Part shown: one piece after another, positions 2,265-63,388 of the stretch
How positions within the stretch are numbered: the stretch's first letter is position 1
Layout: each line of letters starts with the position of its first letter
Origin: an uncultured Alistipes sp.
Lineage (GTDB): Bacteria; Bacteroidota; Bacteroidia; Bacteroidales; Rikenellaceae
Assembly (NCBI GenBank): GCA_947573795.1
Contig: CANPHE010000011.1
Location: 1 to 64,000 of the forward strand
DNA: 64,000 bases
Direction of reading: 5' to 3'
The notes under the pieces: generated by a model
The model's database searches: none
The model's input: only the letters and a program-made list of their open reading frames with translations
What the model was told of the DNA's origin: nothing
Program-made: the position numbers and the translations under genes

Positions 2265-3377
2265 TTACGTTTCGAAAAGGCTTTCGATGACGGCATCCGA
2301 CACCAGAAACCGTTCGGGAACGACGGCGATTCGGTTCCCGTCGGCGTGCAGGGCGCCGGCGGCGATCCAGCGCCGGACCTCGCCAAACAGCCTTTCGAGG
2401 CGCTGGGGGCCGAAAAGCCGCGCGATTTCGCGCGTGTCGATACCGTCGCAGGTGCGCAGCCGCGTGAGCAGGTATTCGTTGTAGCGGTCGCGCTCGCTGA
2501 GCGTTTCGTTTTCGGCCGGGGCGCCTTCGAGGTATTTCGTCACGGAAGCGACGTTCCACCGGCGGCTCTCTCCGTCGTAGGAGTGGGCCGCGGGACCGAT
2601 GCCCAGGTACTTCGCGCCGTGCCAGTAGGCGGCGTTGTGGCGGGCCCGGAAGCCGGGAAGGGCGTAGTTCGAAACCTCGTAGTGCTCGTATCCTGCGGCG
2701 CAGAGCGCCGTGTGCACCGTGAGGAACTCCCGTTCGCTCGTCTCCTCGTCTACGGCGGCGAACGTGCCGCGTGCGGCGCGGCGTCCGAAAGCCGTATCGG
2801 GTTCTACGGTCAAATGGTATGCCGAAATGTGTTGCACGCCCGCATGCAGCAATCCGTCGATCGTCCGGCGCAGCGCGTCGCCGCCGAATCCCGGGACGCC
2901 GAAGATCAGATCGGCGGTGATGTTTTCGAAACCCGCCTCGCGGGCTTCGCGCAGGGCGTCGAGCGCCTGGCGCGCCGTATGGCGGCGGTTCATCAGCCGC
3001 AGGCAGTCGTCGTCGAGCGACTGGACGCCGATCGAGATGCGGTCGAAGCCCGCTTCGCGCAGCGCCGCGAGGTAGCGCGGATTCAGATCGTCGGGGTTGG
3101 CTTCGAGGGTGGTCTCCTCCGTGCGGCTGCAATCGAACAGCTCCTCGGTGCGCCGGAGCAGTCCGCCCAGCGCTTGCGGCGAGCAGAGCGAGGGGGTGCC
3201 GCCGCCGAAGTAGCGCGTGCGGACCGGTTCGCCGCCCAGGTAGTTGCGGCGGGCCTCCAGCTCGCGGGCGAGGGCTGCGACCAGTGCGTCCATGCGGTCC
3301 AGCTCGACGCTCTTGTAGAAGTCGCAGTAGGCGCAGACGCGCTTGCAAAAGGGGATATGGAAATAGATTCCGGCCAT
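2265..3377 (-). CDS. hemW: Radical SAM coproporphyrinogen III oxidase-like heme chaperone HemW
   Basis: MAGIYFHIPFCKRVCAYCDFYKS (CxxxCxYC), GGGTPS motif, 370 aa; TATCTTTG -7 box at 3400-3407. Confidence 0.9.
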   Translation of the reverse strand: MAGIYFHIPFCKRVCAYCDFYKSVELDRMDALVAALARELEARRNYLGGEPVRTRYFGGGTPSLCSPQALGGLLRRTEELFDCSRTEETTLEANPDDLNPRYLAALREAGFDRISIGVQSLDDDCLRLMNRRHTARQALDALREAREAGFENITADLIFGVPGFGGDALRRTIDGLLHAGVQHISAYHLTVEPDTAFGRRAARGTFAAVDEETSEREFLTVHTALCAAGYEHYEVSNYALPGFRARHNAAYWHGAKYLGIGPAAHSYDGESRRWNVASVTKYLEGAPAENETLSERDRYNEYLLTRLRTCDGIDTREIARLFGPQRLERLFGEVRRWIAAGALHADGNRIAVVPERFLVSDAVIESLFET

Positions 3378-3473
3378 ACCGAGTTCGTTACCGATTAATC
3401 AAAGATAGGTAAAAAAGTGCGAAATCCCAAGGATTTCGGCGACTTCTTCTCCCGGGGTCGGACGGCGGAGGGG

Positions 3474-4124
3474 TTAATCTTCGATCTCGACGCCCAGCAG
3501 GCGGACCAGATCGAGGGCCTGGAGGCGGTCGATGCGTGCGCCCCGCAGCTCGGGCGAGACGATTTCCCGGATGCGGATGCCCCGGATGTCGGAGTCGGCG
3601 AGCGACATGCCGCGCAGGCGGGTGCCGAAAAATTCCGCTTCGCCCAGGTCGCAGCGCACGAACCGGCTCTCCTCCATGCGGCAGTCGCTCAGCGACGCGT
3701 GGCGCAGGATGCACTCCTCGAATCGTACGTGCCGCAGGCGGCTCGCCGCGAAGGTGGCCGCTTCGCCCTTGCAGCGCTCCATGCGCACGTGGCGCAGCAC
3801 CGTGTCCGAGAAGTTGGCGCCCGAGAATTTGCAGTCGACGAACGTTACGCGGTGGAACCCGCAGCCCGAGAGGTCGGCGCCCGTAAGGTCGCAGTTGCGC
3901 AACTCGACGTCGCACCACTGCGAATGGCGGACGGTGATGCCCGGGAGCAGGCATCCGCTCAGCGTGCACTGCTCGACGGCGATATGTTCGCGCGCGAACG
4001 GCGGGAAGTAGAGCGAGCGGAAGGCGCGGCGGAAGATCGATTCCTCGTGTGCGAAGCCTTCGGCGTCGGTTTCGACGGGGAGTCCGTCGGGGATTTGGGG
4101 CGGGAGCAGCGCGGTTTTTTTCAT
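3474..4124 (-). CDS. Pentapeptide repeat protein
   Basis: 216 aa with repeating A(D/N)LSG/xLRx pattern (CDLTGADLSGCGFHRVTFVDCKFSGANFSDTVL...). Confidence 0.75.
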   Translation of the reverse strand: MKKTALLPPQIPDGLPVETDAEGFAHEESIFRRAFRSLYFPPFAREHIAVEQCTLSGCLLPGITVRHSQWCDVELRNCDLTGADLSGCGFHRVTFVDCKFSGANFSDTVLRHVRMERCKGEAATFAASRLRHVRFEECILRHASLSDCRMEESRFVRCDLGEAEFFGTRLRGMSLADSDIRGIRIREIVSPELRGARIDRLQALDLVRLLGVEIED

Positions 4125-5538: not shown

Positions 5539-5991
5539 ATGGCAGTAATCAGATTGACCAAGGAATTCTCGTTCGAGGCGGCTCATGCGTTGGGCGGCTA
5601 CGACGGACCGTGCCGCGAGATACACGGCCACTCCTACCGTCTGTTCGTGACGGTCAAAGGCCGCCCGGCGACGGAGACGGCCGATCCCAAGTGCGGCATG
5701 GTGCTGGATTTCGGCGTGTTGAAGCGGATCGTCGGCGAGCAGATCGTCTCGCGCCTCGACCATGCGCTGGTGTTGCGTGCCGACGAGGCCAACGAGCCGT
5801 TGTTGCGCATGCTCGGCGAGCGGTTCGACAACGTGGTGACGGTCGATTATCAGCCGACGTGCGAGAACATGCTCGACGATTTCGCCCGCCGCTTGCAGGC
5901 CCATCTGCCCGAGGGCGTCGAGTTGTGGTCGCTGCGCCTGCATGAAACGGCAACGTCATTCGCCGAGTGGTTCGCCGAGGACAACGCTTAA
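5539..5991 (+). CDS. queD: 6-carboxytetrahydropterin synthase QueD
   Basis: MAVIRLTKEFSFEAAHALGGYDGPCREIHGHSYRLFVTVKG; HGH motif, CENM/LHET motifs. Start moved from ORF-track 5431 to ATG 5539. Confidence 0.88.
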   Translation: MAVIRLTKEFSFEAAHALGGYDGPCREIHGHSYRLFVTVKGRPATETADPKCGMVLDFGVLKRIVGEQIVSRLDHALVLRADEANEPLLRMLGERFDNVVTVDYQPTCENMLDDFARRLQAHLPEGVELWSLRLHETATSFAEWFAEDNA

Positions 5992-6053
5992 GGCGTCGGC
6001 CGCATCCGGCCGGAGCCTCCGCTCCGTATGATCTACCAAACGCAACTTCATAT

Positions 6054-8912
6054 ATGAAAAAACTTTTTCTGGTCGATGCCTATGCGTTGATATTCAAGTA
6101 TTATTACGCATTCCTGGGCCGACCCATGCGCAACCGCGCGGGTATGAACACCTCCGTTGTGTTCGGATTCGTCAAGTTCCTGCGCGACATTCAGAAACGC
6201 GAACGTCCCGATCTGTTGGGTGTGGCGTTCGATCCCAAGGGTGGCAGTTTCCGCCGCGAGATTTTCCCCGAATACAAGGCCAACCGGGCCGAGACGCCCG
6301 AGGATATCCTCCTCTCGGTGCCGTATGTCAAACGGGTGCTCGACGCCATGTGTATCCCGGTGCTGGAGGTCGAGGGCTACGAGGCCGACGACGTGATCGG
6401 CACCCTCTCGCAGAAGGGTGTTGCGGCGGGTTACGACGTTTATATGGTGACGCCCGATAAGGACTACGGGCAGTTGGTGCGCGACAACTGTCGGATATAC
6501 AAACAGAAAGGTGCCGAAGGAAGTATCGAGATCGTCGATCGCGAGGCGATCCGCGCCAAATACGGTATCGACGATCCGGTGCTCGTGCGCGACATTCTCG
6601 CCCTGTGGGGCGATGCGTCGGACAATATTCCCGGCGTGCCGGGCATCGGCGAAAAGAGTGCCTGCAAGTTGGTGCAGGAGTGGGGCACGGTGGAGAATAT
6701 CCTCGACAACGTGGCGCAGATCAAGGGCAAGCAGGGCGAGAAGATCGCCGCCTGGAGCGACAACCTGCGGCTGGCCAAGCGGCTGACGACGATCTGCCTC
6801 GACGTGCCGATCGAGTTGCGCGAGGAGGAATTGACGGTGTGCGATCCGCATATCGACGAGTTGAAGGCCCTGTTCGCCGAGCTGGATTTCAAGGCTTTCA
6901 TGCACGATTTGGCCAACCTCGCGCCTGCCGAGCCGCTGCCCGACGGTCCGCGGCAGGAGGCGCAGACGCAGTTGGCCGAGATGGCGCGCGCGAAGTCCGC
7001 GGCGGCCAAACGCGCCGCGCTGGCCGGGCAGGGAAATCTGTTCGGCGATCCCGTGGTGCCGCTGCCGGCGGTTCCGGTTCCCGAGATCGAGGAGGAGGTG
7101 CAATGGCATACGGCGCAGAATACGCCCCACGAATATATCCTGGTGGAGGATGCCGACGCCCTGCGGACGCTCGTGGAGCAGCTGTCGGGGTATGACGAGG
7201 TGTGTTTCGATACGGAGACGACGGGATTCGACTTGTTCAACGACCGGATCGTCGGCATGTCGTTCGCCGCGGAGCCGCACAAGGCGTGGTACGTCGCATT
7301 CCGCGAGGAGACGACGGCCGAATATGCCGCGATCGTGCGGCCGTTGTTCGAGAACGAACGGATCGCCAAGATCGGGCAGAACATCAAGTTCGATTTGATG
7401 GTGTTGCGCCGCATCGGCATCGAGCTCCGGGGACCGAAATACGATACGATGATTCTCCATTACCTGCTCGACCCCGAGTCGCGTCACAACATGAATGCCC
7501 TGGCGGAACGTTATCTCGACTACAAACCCATCGAGATCGAGACGCTTATCGGCCGCGGGGCGAAGCAGCTGACGATGGATATGGTGAATATCGAACGGGT
7601 GACGGAGTATGCGGCCGAGGATGCCGATATCACGCTGCAACTCAAACAGGTGCTCTACCCCGAGGTCGAGCGGATCGGACTCGCCAAGCTCTATTTCGAA
7701 ATCGAGGAGCCGATGATCGCCGTGCTGGCCGATATCGAGACGGCCGGGGTGTGCATCGACACGGAGGCGCTGGCGGAATACGCCGTGGAACTCAATCGCC
7801 GGATGGCCGAACTCGAAGCCGAGATCCGCAGCGAGGCGGGCGAGGCGTCGCTCAACATCAACTCCACGCGTCAGTTGGGCGAGGTGCTGTTCGCCAAAAT
7901 GCGCATCGCCGAGAAGCCCAAAATGACCAAGACCAAGCAATTCTGCACCGACGAAGAGTATTTGCAGACCTTCGCCCACAAGCATCGGATCGTCGATCTG
8001 ATTCTCGAATACCGCGGGGTGAAGAAGTTGTTGTCGACTTATGTCGAGGCGTTGCCGCAACTGGTCAATCGCAAGACGGGACGCATCCACACGTCGTTCA
8101 ACCAGGCCGTGACGGCCACCGGACGACTTTCGTCGACCAATCCCAATTTGCAGAACATTCCCGTACGCGAGGAGATGGGGCGTCGCATCCGCAAGGCCTT
8201 CATCCCCTCGGACGACGATCATCTGCTGCTGTCGGCCGATTACAGTCAGGTAGAATTGCGGTTGATGGCCCATCTGTCGGGCGACGAGTCGCTTATCGGG
8301 GCCTTCGCGCACGGCGAGGACATTCATGCGGCGACGGCGGCCAAACTTTTCCACAAACCGCTGGAGGAGGTGACCCCCGAGGAGCGGCGGCGCGCCAAGA
8401 CGGCCAATTTCGGCATCATTTACGGTATCTCGGCCTTCGGGTTGAGTCAGCGGCTCGAAATTCCCCGCAAGGAGGCACGCGAGTTGATCGACGGCTATTT
8501 CGAGTCCTATCCCAAGATCAAGGAGTATATGGACGGCGTGGTGGCCAAGGCCCGCGAGCAGGGATTCGTCACGACGATTTTCGGGCGGCGCCGCTATCTG
8601 AACGATATCGATTCGCGCAACGCCGTGGCGCGCGGTCTGGCCGAGCGCAATGCCGTGAATGCGCCGATACAGGGCTCGGCGGCCGACATCATGAAGATCG
8701 CGATGATCGAGGTGTCGCGCCGTTTCGCCGCCGAAGGGATTCGTTCGCGGGTGATTCTCCAGGTACACGACGAATTGGTCGTCGACATGCTTCGCGAGGA
8801 GCGGGAGCGCGTGACGGCCATCGTCACCGAGGCGATGGAGGGTGCCGCCGAGCTGCGGGTGCGGCTGCTCGCCGAGGCCGGTACGGGGCGCAATTGGCTC
8901 GAAGCGCATTAG
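6054..8912 (+). CDS. polA: DNA polymerase I
   Basis: 953 aa; 5' nuclease domain, 3'-5' exo (FDTETTGFD), pol motifs DYSQVELRLMAHLSGD, RRAKTANFGIIYGIS, LQVHDELV. Confidence 0.97.
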   Translation: MKKLFLVDAYALIFKYYYAFLGRPMRNRAGMNTSVVFGFVKFLRDIQKRERPDLLGVAFDPKGGSFRREIFPEYKANRAETPEDILLSVPYVKRVLDAMCIPVLEVEGYEADDVIGTLSQKGVAAGYDVYMVTPDKDYGQLVRDNCRIYKQKGAEGSIEIVDREAIRAKYGIDDPVLVRDILALWGDASDNIPGVPGIGEKSACKLVQEWGTVENILDNVAQIKGKQGEKIAAWSDNLRLAKRLTTICLDVPIELREEELTVCDPHIDELKALFAELDFKAFMHDLANLAPAEPLPDGPRQEAQTQLAEMARAKSAAAKRAALAGQGNLFGDPVVPLPAVPVPEIEEEVQWHTAQNTPHEYILVEDADALRTLVEQLSGYDEVCFDTETTGFDLFNDRIVGMSFAAEPHKAWYVAFREETTAEYAAIVRPLFENERIAKIGQNIKFDLMVLRRIGIELRGPKYDTMILHYLLDPESRHNMNALAERYLDYKPIEIETLIGRGAKQLTMDMVNIERVTEYAAEDADITLQLKQVLYPEVERIGLAKLYFEIEEPMIAVLADIETAGVCIDTEALAEYAVELNRRMAELEAEIRSEAGEASLNINSTRQLGEVLFAKMRIAEKPKMTKTKQFCTDEEYLQTFAHKHRIVDLILEYRGVKKLLSTYVEALPQLVNRKTGRIHTSFNQAVTATGRLSSTNPNLQNIPVREEMGRRIRKAFIPSDDDHLLLSADYSQVELRLMAHLSGDESLIGAFAHGEDIHAATAAKLFHKPLEEVTPEERRRAKTANFGIIYGISAFGLSQRLEIPRKEARELIDGYFESYPKIKEYMDGVVAKAREQGFVTTIFGRRRYLNDIDSRNAVARGLAERNAVNAPIQGSAADIMKIAMIEVSRRFAAEGIRSRVILQVHDELVVDMLREERERVTAIVTEAMEGAAELRVRLLAEAGTGRNWLEAH

Positions 8913-9257: not shown

Positions 9258-9884
9258 TCAGAACGATACGCCGACGCGGATACCGAAGTTGTTGAGTCCG
9301 TTGACCGAATAGGTAAGCACGTCGCCGCTGTTGGTCGAATAGCTGTAATAGGCGGCGATGTGGAATCCCAGCCGGTAGTCGGGGCGCGGGAAGATCGAAA
9401 CGCCGACCTCGGGCGAGAGGAAAAATCCCCAGGTATCGGTATACTGTTTGATGACGTAATAATAGGAGGAGAATTCGGCCCAGGAGGCGCCCAACTTCAG
9501 CCCTACATAGGGCTGCAATACGCTGTCCTTATACCAGTTGTAACGTCCGGTGACGCCGAACGGAAGCTGGAAAGCGGCGTGTTTCTGGGCTGTGGTCAGC
9601 GCCGAGCCTCCGCTCAGGTCGAGGGTGCTGCGCGACACCGATTCCAGATTGGTCTGGTAGGAGATGAAGGCTCCGACGGCGATTTCGGGCGTCACGAAGT
9701 AGCCGCCCTCGAAATTCATGCCCCAACCCGAGGCTTTGTCGGCGAAATCGGAGCCGAGCGGTACGCCGACTTGCCAGTCGATGTTGATATAGCTGTCGGG
9801 GAAAAGCTGCGCTTTGGCCGGATGTGCGGCCAGGAACAGGACGGCGCAACAGGCGGCCGCCTTGAGGTATTTAGCTGTTTTCAT
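9258..9884 (-). CDS. Outer membrane beta-barrel protein
   Basis: 208 aa, signal peptide MKTAKYLKAAACCAVLFLAAHPAKAQ, alternating beta pattern, C-terminal aromatic (GIRVGVSF). Confidence 0.7.
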   Translation of the reverse strand: MKTAKYLKAAACCAVLFLAAHPAKAQLFPDSYINIDWQVGVPLGSDFADKASGWGMNFEGGYFVTPEIAVGAFISYQTNLESVSRSTLDLSGGSALTTAQKHAAFQLPFGVTGRYNWYKDSVLQPYVGLKLGASWAEFSSYYYVIKQYTDTWGFFLSPEVGVSIFPRPDYRLGFHIAAYYSYSTNSGDVLTYSVNGLNNFGIRVGVSF

Positions 9885-9950
9885 GTTCGTTCTTGGTTTT
9901 GGTATTCGATTTTTCCGGTGTAGCGGATGCGGTTTAGGGCTCGTGAGCCG

Positions 9951-10592
9951 TTATTTATGCAGATAGGGCGATTGGGCGAAGGCTTGATCGACGGCCGAGA
10001 GCGTACGTTGCAGATTGACTTTCTCGGATGCGGAGAGCAGTCCGCCGATGAAGCTGTTCCATACTACGGGCAGTTTCTTGCCGCTCTCCTCGGAGCCGTC
10101 CAGGTCGAGCATCTCGATCAGCAGCGACCCGGAAGTGTAGCCGTAATAGACGCGGTAAGGGTAATACCAACCGATCCAGTCGCCCCAGTAGGAGGGTGCC
10201 CAGTAATAGGGATAATACCACCACCAGTAGGGGTTGTCGTAACCGACGTAATAGGTCTCCTTTTCGACGTAACTCATCTGGATGCCCGCATCGGCCGTCT
10301 CTTTGTCTTCGATGCGCTGATATCCCGCAGCATCGAGCTGTGCGGCGACGCGGGCGATGATCTCCTGTGCCGAGGCGTCCTCCCAGTACTTCGTCTCGTC
10401 GCTCTCGCCGATCAACAGGATGCGGTCGGGCAGGTAATAGGTCTCCAATGCCGCGAAATCCGTATTGGTGTCGTGGGCCGTATAGACCAGATAATCTTTG
10501 TGGAGTCCCGATGTCGAGGGCTCCTTCTGACACGCGCAGACCGCAGCTGCCAACAGCGCGATCGCGAGGTAATGAATCGTTTTGACGGTCAT
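9951..10592 (-). CDS. DUF4136-like lipoprotein
   Basis: 213 aa; lipobox AAVCAC, YWWWYYPYYWAPSYWGDWIGWYYPY aromatic stretch and DxxxLLIEMLDL typical of DUF4136. Confidence 0.65.
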   Translation of the reverse strand: MTVKTIHYLAIALLAAAVCACQKEPSTSGLHKDYLVYTAHDTNTDFAALETYYLPDRILLIGESDETKYWEDASAQEIIARVAAQLDAAGYQRIEDKETADAGIQMSYVEKETYYVGYDNPYWWWYYPYYWAPSYWGDWIGWYYPYRVYYGYTSGSLLIEMLDLDGSEESGKKLPVVWNSFIGGLLSASEKVNLQRTLSAVDQAFAQSPYLHK

Positions 10593-14636: not shown

Positions 14637-15270
14637 TAGCCTGCGGAGCGAGCATAGCGAGCCTCCGGAGGCTACGTCCTGCGCGGCTCCAAGAACCGCT
14701 CGTGTGGATTTTGCGGTTCGCCGCCAGCGGAGGATTGCCCGAGCTTTCGGCGAGTGGCAGTCCGCCGCCGGGGGTGGCGGCGAACTGGCAGTCTTTCAGA
14801 CTGCATTTTTCCAAATCGCTTCGGGGATTCTTTTTCCTTATGCTTTTTGACCGCCCAAAGGCCCCTCCGAGAACGACTCGAAAGTTTGCGAAAATCATTT
14901 TTGATAGTTGATAGCGGGTCGCACCTGCGAAGCCCGGCTAAAAGCCGGGTATTACGGGGAAATGCCCGCAGACATTGCTTCTTACGGTCTTCTGTCCCCG
15001 GATTTAGGCGGGCCTTCGCCGCCGGAGGCTGCGGCCCGCGCGATCCTGAAGGATCGCATCTTTCCGAAAGGCTTTCGTGATTCTTTTTCTTTGTACTTTT
15101 TGACTGAAAAAAGTACCAAAAATTCCGGCGTGAAGTCTGAATCTTAATTGCTGCGAAGCGGCACTAAAAGGTATGAAATAATCAAATCGCGGAGGAGACT
15201 CGAAAGTTTGCGAAAATTATCATCTTCGGCGGCTGGGCCGGTCGCACCGGAGGTGCGAGCCGCCGAAGAT
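14637..15270. repeat. Hub of intergenic repeat modules (partial and full copies of several families)
   Basis: Contains B-like half (14637-14685), module shared with 9058-9090 (14696-14733), module shared with 55031-55069 (14745-14790), A half (14875-14898), B copy (14916-15057), GTACTTTTTGACTGAAAAAAGTAC hairpin, A copy 2 (15222-15270). Confidence 0.75.
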
Positions 15271-54833: not shown

Positions 54834-54985
54834 GCGATCCACAGGATCGCAGCGAGCCGTAGCCTCCCCCGGGCGGAGGCTCGCCTTAGTCCGGGGACAG
54901 ATGACGGCAAGAAGCAAAATTCGCTGCCACCCCCCCCCATAATACCAGGCTCTTAGCTGGGCTCACCCCGCAGGCTACGACTTGC
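54834..54985 (+). repeat. Structured intergenic repeat family B, copy 2
   Basis: GCGATCCACAGGATCGC...AGTCCGGGGACAGATGACGGCAAGAAGCAAAATTCGCTGCC...CCCCATAATACC. Confidence 0.8.
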
Positions 54986-55140
54986 AGCTAACGCGACATT
55001 AGCCCCTCTATTCATACCTTTTCGGCTTTTAGGCGAAAGGCAGTCCGCCGCTCGGGGTGGCGAACGGCAAAAACATTTCACTTCTTACCTTTCACCTGCT
55101 CTTACCCCCCCCCTCTAATTCTTAATTCTTAATTGATTCT

Positions 55141-56112
55141 ATGATTACATTCACCCGAACTCCGGAGTTCTATGCTCCGCTCGGCGGCAAGGCGCTCTAT
55201 ACCTTCGAGAGCGATACGCCGGGGACTTTTGACGTTCGTATCGCCGATGCGGCGAGCGATAAGATGTTGGGCGCCATGCGCTTCACGGAGGTTGCCGAAG
55301 CGACGTTCGATGCCGCGCCCGTGCTGCGGCGGGCCTTGCGATACACCCCTGCGACGGGCGGTACGGGCATCTCGCAGGCCACGGGACGGCAGGTGATGGC
55401 CGACGTGAAAATCTACGAAGGGCCCGAGGGAACCGAGGCGGTTGCCGAAGCGGGATTATGTCTGCTGCTGGGTACGGATCGGGCCGTGCAAGCACCTGCG
55501 CTGCTGAGCTCGATGCCCCGCCAACGGCTGATCGCACCGGGCGAATGCGACGAACTGACGCTTTTCTGCTCGCGGTCCGGCGCCGTGATCGTGACGGCGC
55601 AGCGGGGACGCGACTATACGGCCGAAAGCTACCGCATCCCTTCGCCCGGGCTGTTTCTCTTTCGGCTCGACACGCGCGATTTCCCCGGAGCCGAGACCCT
55701 GACGGTCGACACGGGCGAGTGCGGCACGGTGGTCTATTCGCTCGTCGCGGCGCCGCAGGGGGCGGTGCGCCTGGCGTGGCGGTCGGAGGCGGGATCGTTC
55801 GAACACTACACCTTCCCGATCGTTGCGACCGAGCGCATGAAGTCCTCGAAACGGCGGGCTACGGATGCCGAGGGACAGGCGGTCGTGCTGTCGGGGAGCG
55901 CCGAGGTGCGCAGGCGGCTCGTCTCGGCCTACGAGTGCGAGGAGGTGGCGCGGGCGCTGGCCGGGATCGTCGCTTCGCCCGACGTACGGATCGCCCGGGG
56001 CGACGAATATATCCCCGTGGAGGTGCTCACCGAGGAGCTCGACGTGCGCGACGAAGGGGAGTTGCGCAGCCTGGAGATCGAGATTCGTAAAAATTCGACG
56101 ACATGGAACTGA
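55141..56112 (+). CDS. Hypothetical protein of phage-derived island
   Basis: 323 aa, beta-rich; overlaps the next ORF by 10 nt, co-oriented with head genes. Confidence 0.6.
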   Translation: MITFTRTPEFYAPLGGKALYTFESDTPGTFDVRIADAASDKMLGAMRFTEVAEATFDAAPVLRRALRYTPATGGTGISQATGRQVMADVKIYEGPEGTEAVAEAGLCLLLGTDRAVQAPALLSSMPRQRLIAPGECDELTLFCSRSGAVIVTAQRGRDYTAESYRIPSPGLFLFRLDTRDFPGAETLTVDTGECGTVVYSLVAAPQGAVRLAWRSEAGSFEHYTFPIVATERMKSSKRRATDAEGQAVVLSGSAEVRRRLVSAYECEEVARALAGIVASPDVRIARGDEYIPVEVLTEELDVRDEGELRSLEIEIRKNSTTWN

Positions 56113-58460
56113 GAATCGATTCGAAAGCGTGCGATCTGGGCGAAGGAAAGCTCGCGATTCCGGCATACGATGCCGCGACGCTCGCCGATGTGCAGGCGTG
56201 CCGCACGGGGCGGACTCTGCGTCTCGAACTGCCCGCGACGCCGCGCAACGACGCCGTGATGGAGTTCGCCCGCGAGGCGCTGTCGGCCGGACGTTTCGAT
56301 GCCGCGGAGCACCGGGCGGTGTTGAGCTACGGCGGTGCGGAACTTTTCGCCGGGAGCGTGCGGCTGCTCGCCACGACCGATGCGGGTTATCGGATCGAAA
56401 TCCGCGACGGCGGGGCGCAGTGGGCCGAGACGGCGGCACGGCGGATGTTTTCGGCGCTGGAGATCGACTACGACGCGCAGCTGACCTCGGAGACCGTCAG
56501 CGAGAGTTGGACCGGCGACACCCCCGTGCGCTTCTTCCCCGTGCACCGCGACGAATACCCGCAGCGGAACAGCTCCGAGGACCTGTTGCCCGGGGAACGG
56601 CTGCTCTCGACGGATGATTATCTCCCGTTTCTGCATGTGGCGACCCTCGCGGAGCGGATTTTCGAACAGACCGGATATCGGGTGCGGAGCCGCTTCTTCG
56701 GATCGGAGTTTTTCCGGTCGCTCTACCTGAGCGGAGCGTATGCCTCGCGCGATACGACCGTGCTGGCGGCACGCATGGGTTTCTGTGCGCGAAGACTCTC
56801 GGAGGCGAGTGCGACGGCGGATCATCTGGGACGGGTATATGCCGATCCGAATGCGATTTACAGCACGGTGGGCAACATCGTCGAAACGGCGGCGGCCGGG
56901 GTGGCGGATGCCGACGGCGAAAAGGTGGAGGAGACCTTCGACAACGGCGGGTGCTTCGTGACGGAGGAGGGCAAAATCCGCTTCGTGCCGACGACGGAGG
57001 TGACCGCGGGATTCGAATACTATCTCCGCTATACGACCGACCACCGGATCGAGAGCCGCACGCGGCTGCGGGGTTTCGATACCCTGTGGCTGACGCCCGG
57101 GACACCGATGGCCTTCGCGCTGGCCAACCGTTACGAAGACCGCCGGGCGGCGATCGAGCCGGGATTCCGTTACCGGATCGTCGTCTTCGACCATGCCGAG
57201 GGCGATTCCTACCGGCTGACCTGCACGCATGACGCCGTGACGGGAACGGTGTGGGGCTCGTTCGCAGCCCGCTCGGCCCTGGTGACGACACCCGCGGCGG
57301 GGAGCCTCTCCGATCCGGCGTTGCTCGTGCTGCGGGGCGGCGTCTGGGAACCTTACGCCGGGGATTGGGCGCTCTACGACGGCTATGTCGGGGAGACGGG
57401 CCGCACGACGGTCGAGGTGCGGGTGTGCACCGAGGCCGAGCGGGTGGCTCCCGCATCGCCCAAGCGGTTCGACCGCATCTTCTTCTCGGGAGCCGACGAG
57501 GGAATGACGCTCACGCTGCATAAGGAGTGTTCGTTGCGCCCCTGCTTCCGGACGGGCCCGGGATTCGGGGCGTGGATGACCTTCGCCGATGTCGCCCGGC
57601 ACCGGATGCGGCAGATCGAACTGATCGAGGCGCTGGCCCACCTTTTCAACCTGCGGTTCTATACCGAGCGCGGAACCCGCACGGTGTGGATCGAGCCCGC
57701 GGACGATTTTTTCGGAGCGGGGCCCGAGGTCGATTGGAGCGACCGTACGGACTTTTCGCAGGAGGTCGTCCGCACGCGGATCGCCCCCGAGGTGCACGAG
57801 CGGCGTACGTGGCGCTACCTTCCGGCCGAGGGCGCCGTGGCGCGGTTCGAAACCGAGACGGGCACGACGTTCGGGGCGTGGAGCTACGATACGGATTCCC
57901 GGGCTGCCTTGCAGGGCGAGCAGGTGCGGACCAGTCCCCTGTTCGCCGCGACGCTCGATTCCGTGGGACACTATGCGGGAGCACCGTCGGCCCGGATGCT
58001 GCAAATCGGCGATCGCGACGCCGCGGAGCAGGACCCGACGTCGTTCACGCCGCGCATAGTCCGCTATGCGGGGATGCGGCCCCTGCCCGACGGCGAGCGC
58101 TGGGGCTATCCCGGGGGGAATACCTATCCGCTTGCCGCGTTCCACTTCGAGGGGGATGCCGCGACGGAAGGTTTCACGCTCGGTTTCGGGGATTGCGACG
58201 GCATCGAGGGACTGCATCGCTTTTACGACCGCCAGCTGGCCCGCGAAACGCTGCGCGAACGCATTCGGCTCGCGCTGCGCATCGCCCCCGACGAATATGC
58301 GGCGCTCTTCGCACCGGGGTGCGGGACCGCGGAGCTGCGTTCGGTGTTCCGGATCGATACGGGTACCGGCGTGGTGCGGGCGCTGCTGCGGGGCGTGGAC
58401 GACTACGATCCCGAGGCCGGGGTGGTGCGGTGCACCTTCGAACGGTTAGTCGAAGATTAA
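56103..58460 (+). CDS. Large hypothetical protein, possibly tail/baseplate-like
   Basis: 785 aa; position in a phage gene cluster and multidomain beta-rich composition; no decisive motif read. Confidence 0.5.
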   Translation: MELRIDSKACDLGEGKLAIPAYDAATLADVQACRTGRTLRLELPATPRNDAVMEFAREALSAGRFDAAEHRAVLSYGGAELFAGSVRLLATTDAGYRIEIRDGGAQWAETAARRMFSALEIDYDAQLTSETVSESWTGDTPVRFFPVHRDEYPQRNSSEDLLPGERLLSTDDYLPFLHVATLAERIFEQTGYRVRSRFFGSEFFRSLYLSGAYASRDTTVLAARMGFCARRLSEASATADHLGRVYADPNAIYSTVGNIVETAAAGVADADGEKVEETFDNGGCFVTEEGKIRFVPTTEVTAGFEYYLRYTTDHRIESRTRLRGFDTLWLTPGTPMAFALANRYEDRRAAIEPGFRYRIVVFDHAEGDSYRLTCTHDAVTGTVWGSFAARSALVTTPAAGSLSDPALLVLRGGVWEPYAGDWALYDGYVGETGRTTVEVRVCTEAERVAPASPKRFDRIFFSGADEGMTLTLHKECSLRPCFRTGPGFGAWMTFADVARHRMRQIELIEALAHLFNLRFYTERGTRTVWIEPADDFFGAGPEVDWSDRTDFSQEVVRTRIAPEVHERRTWRYLPAEGAVARFETETGTTFGAWSYDTDSRAALQGEQVRTSPLFAATLDSVGHYAGAPSARMLQIGDRDAAEQDPTSFTPRIVRYAGMRPLPDGERWGYPGGNTYPLAAFHFEGDAATEGFTLGFGDCDGIEGLHRFYDRQLARETLRERIRLALRIAPDEYAALFAPGCGTAELRSVFRIDTGTGVVRALLRGVDDYDPEAGVVRCTFERLVED

Positions 58461-58477
58461 CTTAAACAATGTAAAAC

Positions 58478-59350
58478 ATGAAATCCGAAATTCAAATTAC
58501 GAATACGGCCGAGGCGTGCCGTATCGAGATCGAGGGGACGATCGGAGTCCCCGAGGAGTGGCAGTTCGACGATCCGGCGGAGCGTGTGGCCACCTACGAG
58601 AAGTTCCGCGACGCGGTGCGCCGGATCGGCGAGATCGAGGCTCGCGAAGTGACGGTCGACATCCGTTCGACGGGCGGCGACGTGAACGACGCGCTGCTGA
58701 TCCACGATGCGCTGCGGCAGACGGGTGCCCGGATCACGACCCGCTGCTACGGCTATACGGCTTCGGCGGCGACGATCATCGCCCAGGCGGCATCGGAGGG
58801 GTGTCGCGAGATTTCGGCCAATGCGCTCTATCTGATTCACACGGCCGTATGCGCCACGGAGGGGAATGCCGCGGAGCTGGCGGCGAAGACGGAGCTGCTG
58901 CGCCAGACCGATGCCCGCATCGCGGCGATTTATGCCGAGCGGTCGCAGCGCCCCGTAGCGGAATTCGAGCGTCTGATGGCCGAGAACAACGGCAACGGAC
59001 GCTGGTTGTCGCCCGAGGAGGCGCTCGATGCGGGGCTGGTCGACCGGATCGTCGAGATGCCCGAGGTTTCCGGCGGGAGGGCGTTCGCCCGCAACATCGT
59101 CCGCGGTTGGCGGCGTCTTTTCTCCGGGGCGAAGACCGGACGCGTAGAGTCGTTGCCTTCCGACCGGAATGTCCTCCACGAGCGGGAGGGGGCGGCTGCT
59201 TCGGCTCCGGTTTCGGCGGAGGAGCTGCGGCGAAAGTTCGGACCGACATGCACGCAGTCCCGCGAGGACCCCTCCTGCACCGAACCGCTGCACTCGGCCA
59301 ACGAACTGGCGTACAGCGAGGATGCAAGGCGGTTTCGCAATACGTTCTGA
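58478..59350 (+). CDS. ClpP/S49-like head maturation protease
   Basis: 290 aa; VDIRSTGGDVNDALLIHDAL, YTASAATIIAQAAS (Ser), YLIHTAVCA (His): ClpP-fold layout. Confidence 0.78.
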   Translation: MKSEIQITNTAEACRIEIEGTIGVPEEWQFDDPAERVATYEKFRDAVRRIGEIEAREVTVDIRSTGGDVNDALLIHDALRQTGARITTRCYGYTASAATIIAQAASEGCREISANALYLIHTAVCATEGNAAELAAKTELLRQTDARIAAIYAERSQRPVAEFERLMAENNGNGRWLSPEEALDAGLVDRIVEMPEVSGGRAFARNIVRGWRRLFSGAKTGRVESLPSDRNVLHEREGAAASAPVSAEELRRKFGPTCTQSREDPSCTEPLHSANELAYSEDARRFRNTF

Positions 59351-59379
59351 ATAGGGGTGCTGAAGTTGCTATCCGGCAA

Positions 59380-59465
59380 GGATGCAAGGCAAGCCTTGCC
59401 ATCTTCGGCGGCTCGCACCTTTGGTGCGACCGGCCCAGCCGCCGAAGATGATTTTTCTCGCAAGC
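59380..59465 (+). repeat. Structured intergenic repeat family A, copy 3
   Basis: 49-bp core 59401-59449 ATCTTCGGCGGCTCGCACCTTTGGTGCGACCGGCCCAGCCGCCGAAGAT, preceded by GCAAGGCAAGCCTTGC. Confidence 0.85.
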
Positions 59466-59591
59466 ACCGGCTTCTCCGAATCGCTCGATTCATGTCTTAG
59501 GTACTTTTTGACTGCAAAAACGCTCCGGCATGGAGCTGCAACAGCCAATCCATTTTCCTTAATTCTTAACCTTTTCAAATCTTTTATCATT

Positions 59592-60569
59592 ATGAGTTTG
59601 CTCGAAAACGTAAAACAGTACACGGGTTCCGACCTGGAACAGATCTTTTTCCGCCCCATGCTGACGGGCGAATCGGCCCTCGACCTGGGCGTACGCGTCC
59701 TCTACAACCTTCCGACACCCACGCGCGTGCATCTGTGGGACGGGCAGCGCAACATTCTCCAGAAGTTCGATGCGGCGGGCTGGAAGGGCGGCAAGGCTGC
59801 CAAGAAGTACCAGAAGACCATTCCGCTCTCGCCGGTGAAGGCCGAGCTGGGCTTCTCGGCCGCCGACTATTTCTCGATGGTCTACGAGAAGATCGCCGCG
59901 CGTGCCGACGTCAACATGGACGATCTGAGCGGCACGGAGCTCGAACAGGCCGAAACGGCGCTTTTCCGTCAGGCGTTGGCGGAGAATATCCGCGCGACGA
60001 TGTGGGTCGGCGACACGGCGGCGACGAGCGGCTACAACACCTTCGACGGATTCCTCAAATCGATCGCGGCGGCCGATACGAGCGGTGCGATATACAGCGA
60101 TACGTACTCCAGCACGGAAATCGCCGCGGCGGGAAAAGTCGTCGAGTTGTTCGACGACCTTTGGCAGAACGCCGGATCGGTGCTCCAGGGGCTCAAGGGC
60201 GAGGGGCAGCTGGCTTTCTTCGTCACCTCGGATATCTGCTATCTCTACGAGAAGTATCTCGACTCGAAGGGGGTGGACGCCGCTTATACCGATGCGGTGA
60301 ACGGTCGTCAGCGGCTTACCTACCACGGCATTCCGGTGATCGACGTGCGGCTGGGCAACTACCTCACGGGAACGTCGTATCCGCAGTCGTTCTGCCTGCT
60401 GACCGACCGCCGCAATCTCGTGCTGGCCGTCAATACCTCGGAGTTCCCGGGCAATGAGGTACGCATGTGGTACAATCCCGACGAGATGGAGAACCGCCAG
60501 CGTGCGGTCTTCATGGCCGGATGCGAGGTGCTGGACGAGGCGCTGGTCGCTTACGCTTACAGTGCTTGA
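59592..60569 (+). CDS. Major capsid protein-like
   Basis: MSLLENVKQYTGSDLEQIFFRPMLTGESALDLGVRVLYNLP...; 325 aa, HK97-type capsid-like composition; between protease and portal. Start trimmed from 59382. Confidence 0.65.
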   Translation: MSLLENVKQYTGSDLEQIFFRPMLTGESALDLGVRVLYNLPTPTRVHLWDGQRNILQKFDAAGWKGGKAAKKYQKTIPLSPVKAELGFSAADYFSMVYEKIAARADVNMDDLSGTELEQAETALFRQALAENIRATMWVGDTAATSGYNTFDGFLKSIAAADTSGAIYSDTYSSTEIAAAGKVVELFDDLWQNAGSVLQGLKGEGQLAFFVTSDICYLYEKYLDSKGVDAAYTDAVNGRQRLTYHGIPVIDVRLGNYLTGTSYPQSFCLLTDRRNLVLAVNTSEFPGNEVRMWYNPDEMENRQRAVFMAGCEVLDEALVAYAYSA

Positions 60570-60643
60570 CGGGGCGATGCCGACCCGCGGGAATCATTCC
60601 CGCGGGCTTCGGCCCCTCTTTTTCCGATCGTATCTAAAACCCG

Positions 60644-61882
60644 ATGAAGATGAACGAACAACGTAAGATCAAAACGACGGTCGGTGTGGGCAACCGTGCC
60701 CCCGATCCTTATATCGTGCTCGGCGCAGGACGCGTCGAGAGCGACAAATTCTGGCGCTGGGGCGACGACAATCTTTTCCCCGACGCTCTGGCGTTGATGG
60801 CCCGCCGTTCGACGACCCACCGCCGCATCATCAACGACAAGGCCGACTATATCTCGGGCAAGGGATTCGCCTGCGACGCGGAGCGGTATCCGGAGCTGGC
60901 GGCTTTCGTCCGCCGGGTGAACGGCCGCGGCGAGAGCCTGCGGCAGGTGCTCAACAAACTCGCCTTCGACAAGGCGCTCTTCGGAAACGCCTTCCTGGAG
61001 GTGGTGACCGACCCCGCACACGGGTTTCTCTCGCTCTACCACCAGGATGCGTCGCAGTGTCGGGTCGCGCGCGATTCGCAGCACGTGCTGCTGCACCACG
61101 ACTGGCGGGCGTTCCGCGCCTCGGAGGCGCGCGTGCTGCCGCTCTATCCGCTTTTCGAGCCTCAGGACGACGGATCGCTGCGTGCCGTGATCCACTACAA
61201 GGATTACGAACCGATGTTCGAGCACTACGGCGTGCCGCCCTACATCGCCGGATTCGGCGTTTCGGCCATCGCCTACAAGACCGACCGGTGGAATATCTCG
61301 CGGCTCGACAATTCGTTCCAGCTCTCCGGTGTGATGATGCTCGACTCGACGGTGGACAGCGACGCCGAAGCCGAGCGCATCGTGCGGCTCGCCGAGCAGA
61401 AGTTCGCGGGCAAGCCCGGACAGGTGATGTTCGTTATCCGCGACGGCGGCGAGGAGAACGACAATTCGCGTTTCATCCCCATCGCATCGCAGAACGAGGG
61501 CGACTGGCAGGCGTTGCACGAGCAGGCCGTGTCGGATATCGTCGTGGCCCATTCGTGGTTCCGCACGTTGAGCGGTCTGGACTATGCCGGAGGTTTCAGT
61601 GCCGAACGAATCCTGCACGAATACGAGGTGGCGCTCAATACGGTGATCCTGGCCGAACAGGCCGAGCTCGTGGAGCCCATCCGCGGGGCGATCGGCGCCG
61701 TACTGGGGCTCGACGCTTCGTCGCTCGAAGTCGTCAACCGTCCGCCGACGCGTTCGAAACCTATTTACATGAAGGTCTGGGAGGCTCGCAAAGCCGACGG
61801 CCTGGATTTCGACCCCGACGATCCGAAGCAGCAGGCTTTTCTTTCGGAGATTACCAAATACAATATCCGGAGCATCGAGTAA
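60644..61882 (+). CDS. Phage portal protein
   Basis: 412 aa; RRIINDKADYISGKGF, FDKALFGNAFLEVV, YEPMFEHYGVPPYIAG typical of Bacteroidetes phage portals. Confidence 0.75.
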   Translation: MKMNEQRKIKTTVGVGNRAPDPYIVLGAGRVESDKFWRWGDDNLFPDALALMARRSTTHRRIINDKADYISGKGFACDAERYPELAAFVRRVNGRGESLRQVLNKLAFDKALFGNAFLEVVTDPAHGFLSLYHQDASQCRVARDSQHVLLHHDWRAFRASEARVLPLYPLFEPQDDGSLRAVIHYKDYEPMFEHYGVPPYIAGFGVSAIAYKTDRWNISRLDNSFQLSGVMMLDSTVDSDAEAERIVRLAEQKFAGKPGQVMFVIRDGGEENDNSRFIPIASQNEGDWQALHEQAVSDIVVAHSWFRTLSGLDYAGGFSAERILHEYEVALNTVILAEQAELVEPIRGAIGAVLGLDASSLEVVNRPPTRSKPIYMKVWEARKADGLDFDPDDPKQQAFLSEITKYNIRSIE

Positions 61883-61914
61883 TTCAGAATTTAGGCGTGC
61901 TTTGTGCGGCTTTT

Positions 61915-62063
61915 GCGAGTCGTAGCCTGCGGGGCGAGCCCGGCCAAGAGCCGGGTATTATGGGGAAATGGCAGCGAATTTTGCTTCTTGCCGTCATCTG
62001 TCCCCGGACTAAGGCGAGCCTCCGCCCGGGGGAGGCTACGGCTCGCGCGATCCTGTGGATCGC
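61915..62063 (-). repeat. Structured intergenic repeat family B, copy 3
   Basis: Reverse complement contains AGTCCGGGGACAGATGACGGCAAGAAGCAAAATTCGCTGCC, identical to copy 2 over 41 nt. Confidence 0.85.
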
Positions 62064-62120
62064 ATATTGTCGCAAAGAAAAGAATCGCCCGAGCGATTCA
62101 TCACCATCGAAACCATCCTT

Positions 62121-62594
62121 ATGAAAACATTGATAGCAACCCATCGGGCCCAGGAACTCGCCTTCGCCAGAGGCGAATACCTGCCGCCCGAGACCCTCGC
62201 GCCCGGCGATGTCGCCGCGGCCGAGCAGCGTCATATCCTCCCCGTCGTGGGGCGGGCGCTCTACGAAAAGATGCTCGACGGAGCCTACGGGGAATTCGTC
62301 GCAGAGTACCTGGAGGTCCCCGTGGCGCTCTTCGCGCGTCTGGCGGTTCAATCGGGGCTCGACGTCCGTACGGGACGCCGCGGAACGACAGCGCCCAAAT
62401 CCTCCTGCTCGCAACCGGCCGACGCTGCGGCGCTGCGGCGATTGCGGAACTCGCTGCGCATGCGAGCCCGTGCGCTCCTGCGCCGCGCTTCGGAGTACCT
62501 GGTCGCCCACCGCGACGAATTTCCCGAATACGATCCCGCACGGGATATCTGCAACCGTTGCACGACCGATGGAAACCTGGTACAGACTCGTTAG
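62121..62594 (+). CDS. Small hypothetical protein in connector position
   Basis: 157 aa from ATG 62121; upstream part of ORF 62055 is repeat B sequence. Confidence 0.55.
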   Translation: MKTLIATHRAQELAFARGEYLPPETLAPGDVAAAEQRHILPVVGRALYEKMLDGAYGEFVAEYLEVPVALFARLAVQSGLDVRTGRRGTTAPKSSCSQPADAAALRRLRNSLRMRARALLRRASEYLVAHRDEFPEYDPARDICNRCTTDGNLVQTR

Positions 62595-62994
62595 CGGTGC
62601 GGCGGCGAGCCTCGCCGCGCTGTTCGCCCCGATCGGGCCGCTCGTCGCCACGACGCTGCTATTCATCGCCGTGGATTTTCTTTCGGGAGTCGCTGCCGAC
62701 CGTGCGACGGCGTGCCGCGATCGAAGGAAATGGTATTTCGAAAGCCGCAAGGCGTGGCGCACGGTGGTGAAGGCCGCATTGGCGGTGACGATGATCGCCA
62801 TGGCATGGCTGCTGGACTGCTGCGTGCTGGATTTTCTGGAGCTCCGCTCGGCGAAACTGCTGGCGGGCTTCGCCTGCGGTGTGGAGCTGTGGTCGTTCCT
62901 TGAAAATGCGGCTCAGCTGTCCGATGCCCCGCTTTTCGGCTGGTTGCGGCGCTACGTACACCGCAGAATCCGGGAGGAGGTGGGCGATGAGTAG
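62569..62994 (+). CDS. Phage holin-family-like membrane protein
   Basis: METWYRLVSGAAASLAALFAPIGPLVATTLLFIAVDFLSGVAADR...; TM helices, overlaps neighbours. Confidence 0.7.
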   Translation: METWYRLVSGAAASLAALFAPIGPLVATTLLFIAVDFLSGVAADRATACRDRRKWYFESRKAWRTVVKAALAVTMIAMAWLLDCCVLDFLELRSAKLLAGFACGVELWSFLENAAQLSDAPLFGWLRRYVHRRIREEVGDE

Positions 62995-63388
62995 GGGACT
63001 GCGGAACTGCAATCCCGGCAATATCCGCCTCTCCGGGGTGCGTTACAAAGGCGAGGTACGGCCCTCGCGCGATCCCGAATTCCGGCAGTTCGAAACCATG
63101 GCCTGGGGCTATCGGGCGATCTTCGTGCTGTTGGACACCTACCGCCTGCGGCACGGACTGCGCACGATCGCCGAGATGATCGCGCGCTGGGCACCGCCCT
63201 CGGAAAACCGCACGCAGAGCTATATCCGTGCCGTATGCGAACGCACGGGCATCGGCCCTGCGGAGCCGATCGATACGCGCAGTGCCGCGACGATGATCCC
63301 CCTCGCGGCCGCCATTTCGCGGGTCGAGAACGGCCGGGATGCGGAAATGCGCGACGTCGAGCAGGGGTGGGCGTTGTTCGTGGGCTGA
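62987..63388 (+). CDS. Phage structural / lysozyme-like protein (RGLRNCNPGNIR family)
   Basis: MSRGLRNCNPGNIRLSGVRYKGEV...TYRLRHGLRTIAEMIARWAPPSENRTQSYI; 133 aa. Confidence 0.7.
   Translation: MSRGLRNCNPGNIRLSGVRYKGEVRPSRDPEFRQFETMAWGYRAIFVLLDTYRLRHGLRTIAEMIARWAPPSENRTQSYIRAVCERTGIGPAEPIDTRSAATMIPLAAAISRVENGRDAEMRDVEQGWALFVG

Follow-up and report, generated by a model that had tools for sequence, protein, structure and literature searches.

Results

Eight open reading frames (ORFs) of phage descent, all intact and on the forward strand, occupy positions 55141–63388 of the window, the 64,000-nucleotide stretch of an uncultured Alistipes sp. (Rikenellaceae) contig analysed here, with mqnA on one side and comEC on the other. 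The window genome (G000; G and L numbers are the genome and locus labels of this analysis) comprises 2.75 Mb in 93 contigs and is 90% complete. The island opens with g1 (323 amino acids, aa; 55141–56112), a fast-evolving protein that matched no family in Pfam or PHROG searches, and g2 (785 aa; 56103–58460), for which AlphaFold gives a confident fold (pLDDT 89.7). The best Foldseek matches of g2 in the PDB are tail-hub proteins, namely the MuSo2 43-kDa tail protein (3cdd, 3e-5) and baseplate hubs of phages 7-7-1, Milano and Mu, and many predicted phage relatives are found in BFVD (E-values down to 1e-39). There follow a ClpP-like head maturation protease (290 aa; 58478–59350; PF00574, 1e-26; PHROG 94, 5e-37), the major capsid protein (325 aa; 59592–60569), the portal protein (412 aa; 60644–61882; PF04860, 3e-10; PHROG 11226, 2e-21), a DUF6712 protein (157 aa; 62121–62594; PF20459, 5e-10), a holin (141 aa; 62569–62994; PF05105, 4e-11) and an endolysin (133 aa; 62987–63388; PHROG 873, 7e-48). 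Family evidence for the capsid is weak when taken alone (PHROG 1623 virion structural protein, 2e-8; PHROG 212 major head protein, 3e-4), and its profile matched no solved structure by sequence, yet 14 of the 17 family members compared hit PHROG 1623, and the gene lines up in order with a phage capsid gene described below. The nearest NCBIfam model of the portal is that of PBSX (TIGR01540), with a score below its cut-off. The DUF6712 gene lies directly 3′ of the portal gene, as it does in phages L126, L125, L041 and L042, a position that makes its product a candidate head-tail connector.

This content, order and intactness agree with a preliminary description of the sequence, whose capsid-like, portal-like, protease, holin and lysozyme labels and two "large beta-rich proteins" are now given families or, for g2, a fold. 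Its statement that no terminase, integrase or tape measure lies between mqnA and comEC also holds; integrase and replication genes are absent from 55141–63388 and from locus L284, no genome-wide integrase search having been made. Two kinds of intergenic repeat occur in the region: one of ∼130 nt, REP- or MITE-like in appearance, stands at 54852–54986 and, in the opposite orientation, at 61914–62046, flanking most of the island, and a hairpin-like repeat in the gap between protease and capsid genes (∼59401–59450) recurs on the reverse strand near position 15221.

The type of phage from which the island descends is represented by L126 (genome G655), an uncultured temperate phage contig of 37.6 kb (IMGVR_UViG_3300001596_000105). 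Its genes run in the order repressor, RecT, DnaB, TerS, TerL, tail genes, g1-like, g2-like, tape measure, protease, capsid, a 172-aa tail-tube-like protein, portal, DUF6712, amidase, holin and integrase, where the identities of repressor, RecT, DnaB, amidase and integrase were assigned by eye. The island reproduces part of this order collinearly and shares the succession hub, protease, capsid, tail-tube-like protein, portal, DUF6712 and lysis genes, except that the tail-tube-like gene is absent from the window genome. Resemblance to the Rikenellaceae genes extends to the portal (45%) and to profile matches of the capsid (4e-77), the g2 hub (a 901-aa protein in L126; 4e-22), the tail-tube-like protein (2.5e-17) and, weakly, g1 (a 190-aa protein in the corresponding position; 9.5e-7). 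By these matches and the predicted structure, g1 and g2 are probably tail-tip proteins, g1 of the tip or distal tail and g2 of the tail hub. Because L126 has the same order and the island is a collinear subset of it, the protease-capsid-portal order, previously described as reversed, is not a rearrangement but the native arrangement of the parent phage type. The succession capsid, portal and DUF6712 is also common to other Bacteroidales prophages. L126 differs from the island in carrying repressor, RecT, DnaB, TerS, TerL, tape measure and integrase. Candidatus Heliusviridae (PMC9226167) was set aside as a comparison: its phages encode polymerase, helicase and terminase, and nothing was found that ties them to the island. 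Two related loci deserve mention in their own right. In the island-related phage L042, a reverse transcriptase follows a tail-fibre gene (5672–8618), possibly as a diversity-generating retroelement, and in L039 (IMG 2814123265; 1006–2152) a Rikenellaceae island lies beside an RNase HII gene, with additional upstream ORFs that by eye look like tail genes of L126 and could reflect a less reduced form.

The search for a distant large terminase, which the preliminary description had suggested, proved decisive. On a contig separate from the island, an ORF at G000:C32:24906-26534 contains a ∼500-aa TerL that matches the PHROG 38 large terminase over its full length (2.7e-84) and TIGR01630 above cut-off, although it matched no solved structure by sequence. 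An apparent absence of TerL from the window genome, indicated by a PHROG 2 search that matched only PhoH and a helicase, was a false negative corrected by PF03237 and PHROG 38; since PHROG 2 misses the TerL of L126 as well as the Rikenellaceae TerL of PHROG 38 type, a negative result with this profile alone is not evidence of absence. TerL is present in 242 of 268 Rikenellaceae genomes and in 106 of the 110 of good quality (PF03237 alone matched in 105 of the 110). The TerL of L126 was rejected as its ancestor; it belongs to a different terminase family, PHROG 979.

Beside TerL are encoded a 96-aa protein of no known family and a divergent LexA/CI-like repressor with helix-turn-helix (HTH) and S24 domains (PF12844 and PF00717, both above cut-offs), and the module of repressor, 96-aa protein and TerL recurs in 30 of 30 crown TerL loci. 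Across 39 aligned sequences the Walker A, Walker B and acidic nuclease residues of TerL are invariant (39/39), and the Ala-Gly, Ser and Lys of the repressor (A101-G102, S137 and K180) are kept in nearly all. The HTH and S24 domains, Ala-Gly site and Ser/Lys dyad are those of an SOS-regulated repressor of the CI/LexA type, and self-cleavage is predicted. Phage-derived capsid, portal and large terminase, the proteins to be expected of a gene transfer agent (GTA), are all encoded by the host. The preliminary description had raised the possibility of a satellite using another phage's packaging machinery; this is unsupported, as the genome has a TerL of its own that has been conserved alongside the head genes. 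Domestication elsewhere has turned HK97-type capsids into encapsulin-like nanocompartments, and the capsid could likewise have been reused with no role in DNA handling, but the conservation of a portal and of an intact TerL nuclease and ATPase along with it makes this extremely improbable.

Two loci are found in most genomes, GTAs often being spread over several, but in two early-branching genomes they are joined: G212 has repressor, a TerS-like ORF, TerL, protease, capsid, portal and DUF6712 adjacent to one another, and G229 has repressor, TerL and head genes in one stretch. Portal and TerL co-occur in 231 Rikenellaceae genomes, occur singly in 12 and 11 and are both missing from 14 (Fisher 3e-10, a test that assigned the unlisted negatives by elimination and that includes related, hence non-independent, genomes). 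The portal gene of G162 contains a stop, and this genome is without TerL and repressor; G189 and G197 lack both portal and TerL and give only distant repressor matches. Among good-quality genomes, G138 and G174 (TerL, no portal) and G162 and G170 (portal, no TerL) are candidates for recent loss of one locus. In a comparison of 23 genomes, the pairwise distances of the unlinked portal and TerL are correlated (Mantel r 0.58, p 0.0002), which fits shared descent, among other possible causes.

The portal occurs in 243 of 268 Rikenellaceae genomes at about one copy each (106 of the 110 good ones), compared with 13 of 388 other Bacteroidales genomes sampled (Fisher 5e-131), and in none of 392 further genomes sampled across the phylum. 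The same gene set and order recur in more than 70 other loci, far beyond chance, and the order is constant across Alistipes loci. Where flanks are visible, mqnA/corA lies upstream in 44 of 59 loci and comEC downstream in 29 of 69, a proportion that makes the comEC adjacency only suggestive. An active mobile prophage or satellite that is merely common in Rikenellaceae might be considered, since related mobile prophages do exist in other Bacteroidales, as in G642 with its four portal copies; a mobile, patchily distributed element with an integrase is, however, not what is found, and the island's presence as a single copy throughout the family, in a common chromosomal position and lacking an integrase, renders this explanation very improbable. 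The island also appears in virus collections: two GenBank entries from human faeces labelled 'Bacteriophage sp.', MT838736 (L328; mqnA through the island to the portal) and MT838805 (L329; portal through comEC), are Rikenellaceae chromosome, and eight IMG/VR contigs (L033–L040) carry the same island.

All island genes are under purifying selection. Among close pairs, dN/dS (omega) is 0.07–0.13 for the portal, 0.10–0.23 for the protease, 0.1–0.3 for the capsid, 0.15–0.27 for g2 and 0.24–0.43 for g1, compared with 0.15–0.21 for comEC, and at the second locus it is 0.05–0.14 for TerL and 0.03–0.05 for the repressor. Across 30 genomes no internal stops occur in capsid, portal or repressor, and those in TerL are confined to the last residues. 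Vertical inheritance within a lineage under purifying selection, as is characteristic of GTAs, is what these data describe, and the earlier argument from intact ORFs against simple decay is extended by them. An ancient prophage decaying slowly and kept by chance would be in keeping with the loss of several genes and the insertion of repeats into intergenic gaps. It would also predict relaxed selection, with omega close to 1, and numerous pseudogenes of independent origin, which was not seen; given selection on at least nine genes across many species, the lack of stops in the 30 closest genomes and the joint retention of two unlinked loci, we consider decay a most improbable account. A deleted prophage, another of the origins first proposed, is acceptable as ancient history, with a deletion that predates the radiation of the family, but not as a recent event at the level of strains.

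The tail has been reduced. A tape measure related to that of L126 is not a family-wide feature, being matched in 6 of 112 genomes, and tape measure, tail tube, integrase and terminase are not found as the single unit of an intact prophage. Early-branching genera carry two extra genes, one of 134 aa before g1 and one of 150 aa between capsid and portal; the model of the 150-aa protein (pLDDT 83) is similar to tail-tube and Hcp proteins, but at weak E-values. Both genes are present at 29 loci (three of them assigned on gap length), both are missing from 30, and none has only one; these calls used position filters, because plain profile searches pick up wrong-frame ORFs in GC-rich DNA. In the window genome the 150-aa gene is absent everywhere searched and the 134-aa gene is absent from the locus, the only place searched. 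Gene content indicates joint loss of the tail-tube-like gene and its 134-aa partner in the window's clade. Since L045 (G133) retains both (3310–3882 and 9402–10004) although it is nested inside the tail-less clade, the losses were repeated or there was a regain.

Two further explanations turn on this reduction. The first is a domesticated particle that kills or signals instead of moving genes, packing chromosomal DNA in the manner of PBSX and acting as a bacteriocin-like particle or lysis device. The conserved holin, endolysin and hub, the missing tape measure and the PBSX model nearest to the portal all speak for it, and PBSX packs host DNA without delivering it, as cited in PMC12946183. A tail-based killer would, however, need the tail-tube-like gene that the window's clade has also lost, and no toxin or immunity gene was seen in the island; we regard this explanation as unlikely. 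The second is a head-only particle that borrows the tails of other phages, as capsid-forming phage-inducible islands do, but is fixed in its host. Retention of TerL, protease, capsid, portal and connector alongside loss of tape measure, tail tube and partner fits this reading, as does the G212 locus, which shows just repressor, TerS-like ORF, TerL, protease, capsid, portal and DUF6712. Continued selection on the hub g2, a vertical distribution and the absence of an integrase from the locus count against such a particle, which seems to us quite improbable.

Discussion

We propose that the island encodes the structural and lysis functions of a phage particle that Rikenellaceae have domesticated and inherit vertically, and that the particle is probably a GTA. 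A domesticated particle or GTA-like cluster was among the options of the preliminary description, and that option is now favoured by near-universal presence in single copy, purifying selection, and TerL and repressor at a second locus.

From the gene content we infer production of particles, random packaging of host DNA, induction by the SOS response and delivery. A prophage of the L126 type would have been captured before Rikenellaceae radiated, and its replication genes would then have gone, as would integrase and tape measure. What stayed between mqnA and comEC would have been capsid, protease, portal, connector, hub, holin and endolysin, and TerL, the 96-aa protein and the LexA/CI-like repressor would have ended at a second locus. 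DNA damage, acting through RecA, may trigger self-cleavage of the repressor at Ala101-Gly102 by means of Ser137 and Lys180, switching on TerL and the head operon. TerL could then pump host DNA via the portal into heads matured by the ClpP-like protease, holin and endolysin would lyse the producer cell, and the particle, which in the window's clade would have a very short tail or none, may bring its DNA to kin. It is also possible, as a more tentative extension that we would hesitate to press, that this is a family-wide Bacteroidota GTA shedding its tail in the course of evolution: early branches keep the tail-tube-like gene and its partner, and the window's clade would be left with head, motor, hub and lysis genes and a tail-less or borrowed-tail delivery, possibly with uptake via the adjacent ComEC.

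Several points weigh against a GTA. Particle, packaged DNA and transfer are predictions from gene content, as is the function. With no tape measure, and in the window's clade no tail-tube-like gene or partner either, there is no evident route for DNA into a recipient. About 10% of genomes are without one or both loci, some by incompleteness and some truly. Finally, sequencing of faecal virus particles from three donors reported GTA-like packaging for Firmicutes families but not for Rikenellaceae, despite the abundance of this family in total DNA (PMC12946183).

A precedent for both a two-locus system and tail-less particles is provided by FpGTA of Faecalibacterium, which is GTA-like and near-universal in its genus, forms tail-less or very short-tailed particles, and has TerL, portal and capsid at one locus and tail/baseplate parts with holin and endolysin at another (PMC12946183). 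It differs in belonging to an unrelated host phylum, in extending over a genus where the Rikenellaceae system, known here from its genes, is family-wide, and in the distribution of functions, as in Rikenellaceae the lysis genes sit with the head genes and TerL with the repressor. The resemblance to the RcGTA-type agents of Alphaproteobacteria is one of features and comprises vertical inheritance, purifying selection, dispersed loci and no autonomous replication. RcGTA has a complete tail and is controlled by CtrA and GafA, whereas in the Rikenellaceae system the tail is reduced and the repressor is LexA/CI-like. PBSX of Bacillus subtilis is similar in its SOS-type control, prophage origin and supposed packing of chromosomal DNA, and its portal model is the nearest to the island's portal, below cut-off, but it possesses a complete contractile tail and kills, and the Rikenellaceae gene set is far narrower. 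The comEC gene that adjoins the island is a neighbour of interest because Alphaproteobacterial GTA recipients need ComEC (PMC10883770, PMC6209664).

GTAs are known from few lineages, and in the literature searched, mostly without subscription papers and preprints, we found none described in Bacteroidota. The Rikenellaceae loci offer a natural series of steps from a full prophage to a reduced particle, in which a single locus becomes two and a tail-tube-like gene disappears along with its partner. If the proposal is correct, it would account for the island-bearing chromosomal fragments now catalogued as phage. Alistipes and related bacteria rank with the most common inhabitants of animal and human guts, and a conserved DNA-packaging particle encoded in nearly all Rikenellaceae species would constitute a standing route of gene exchange in the gut.

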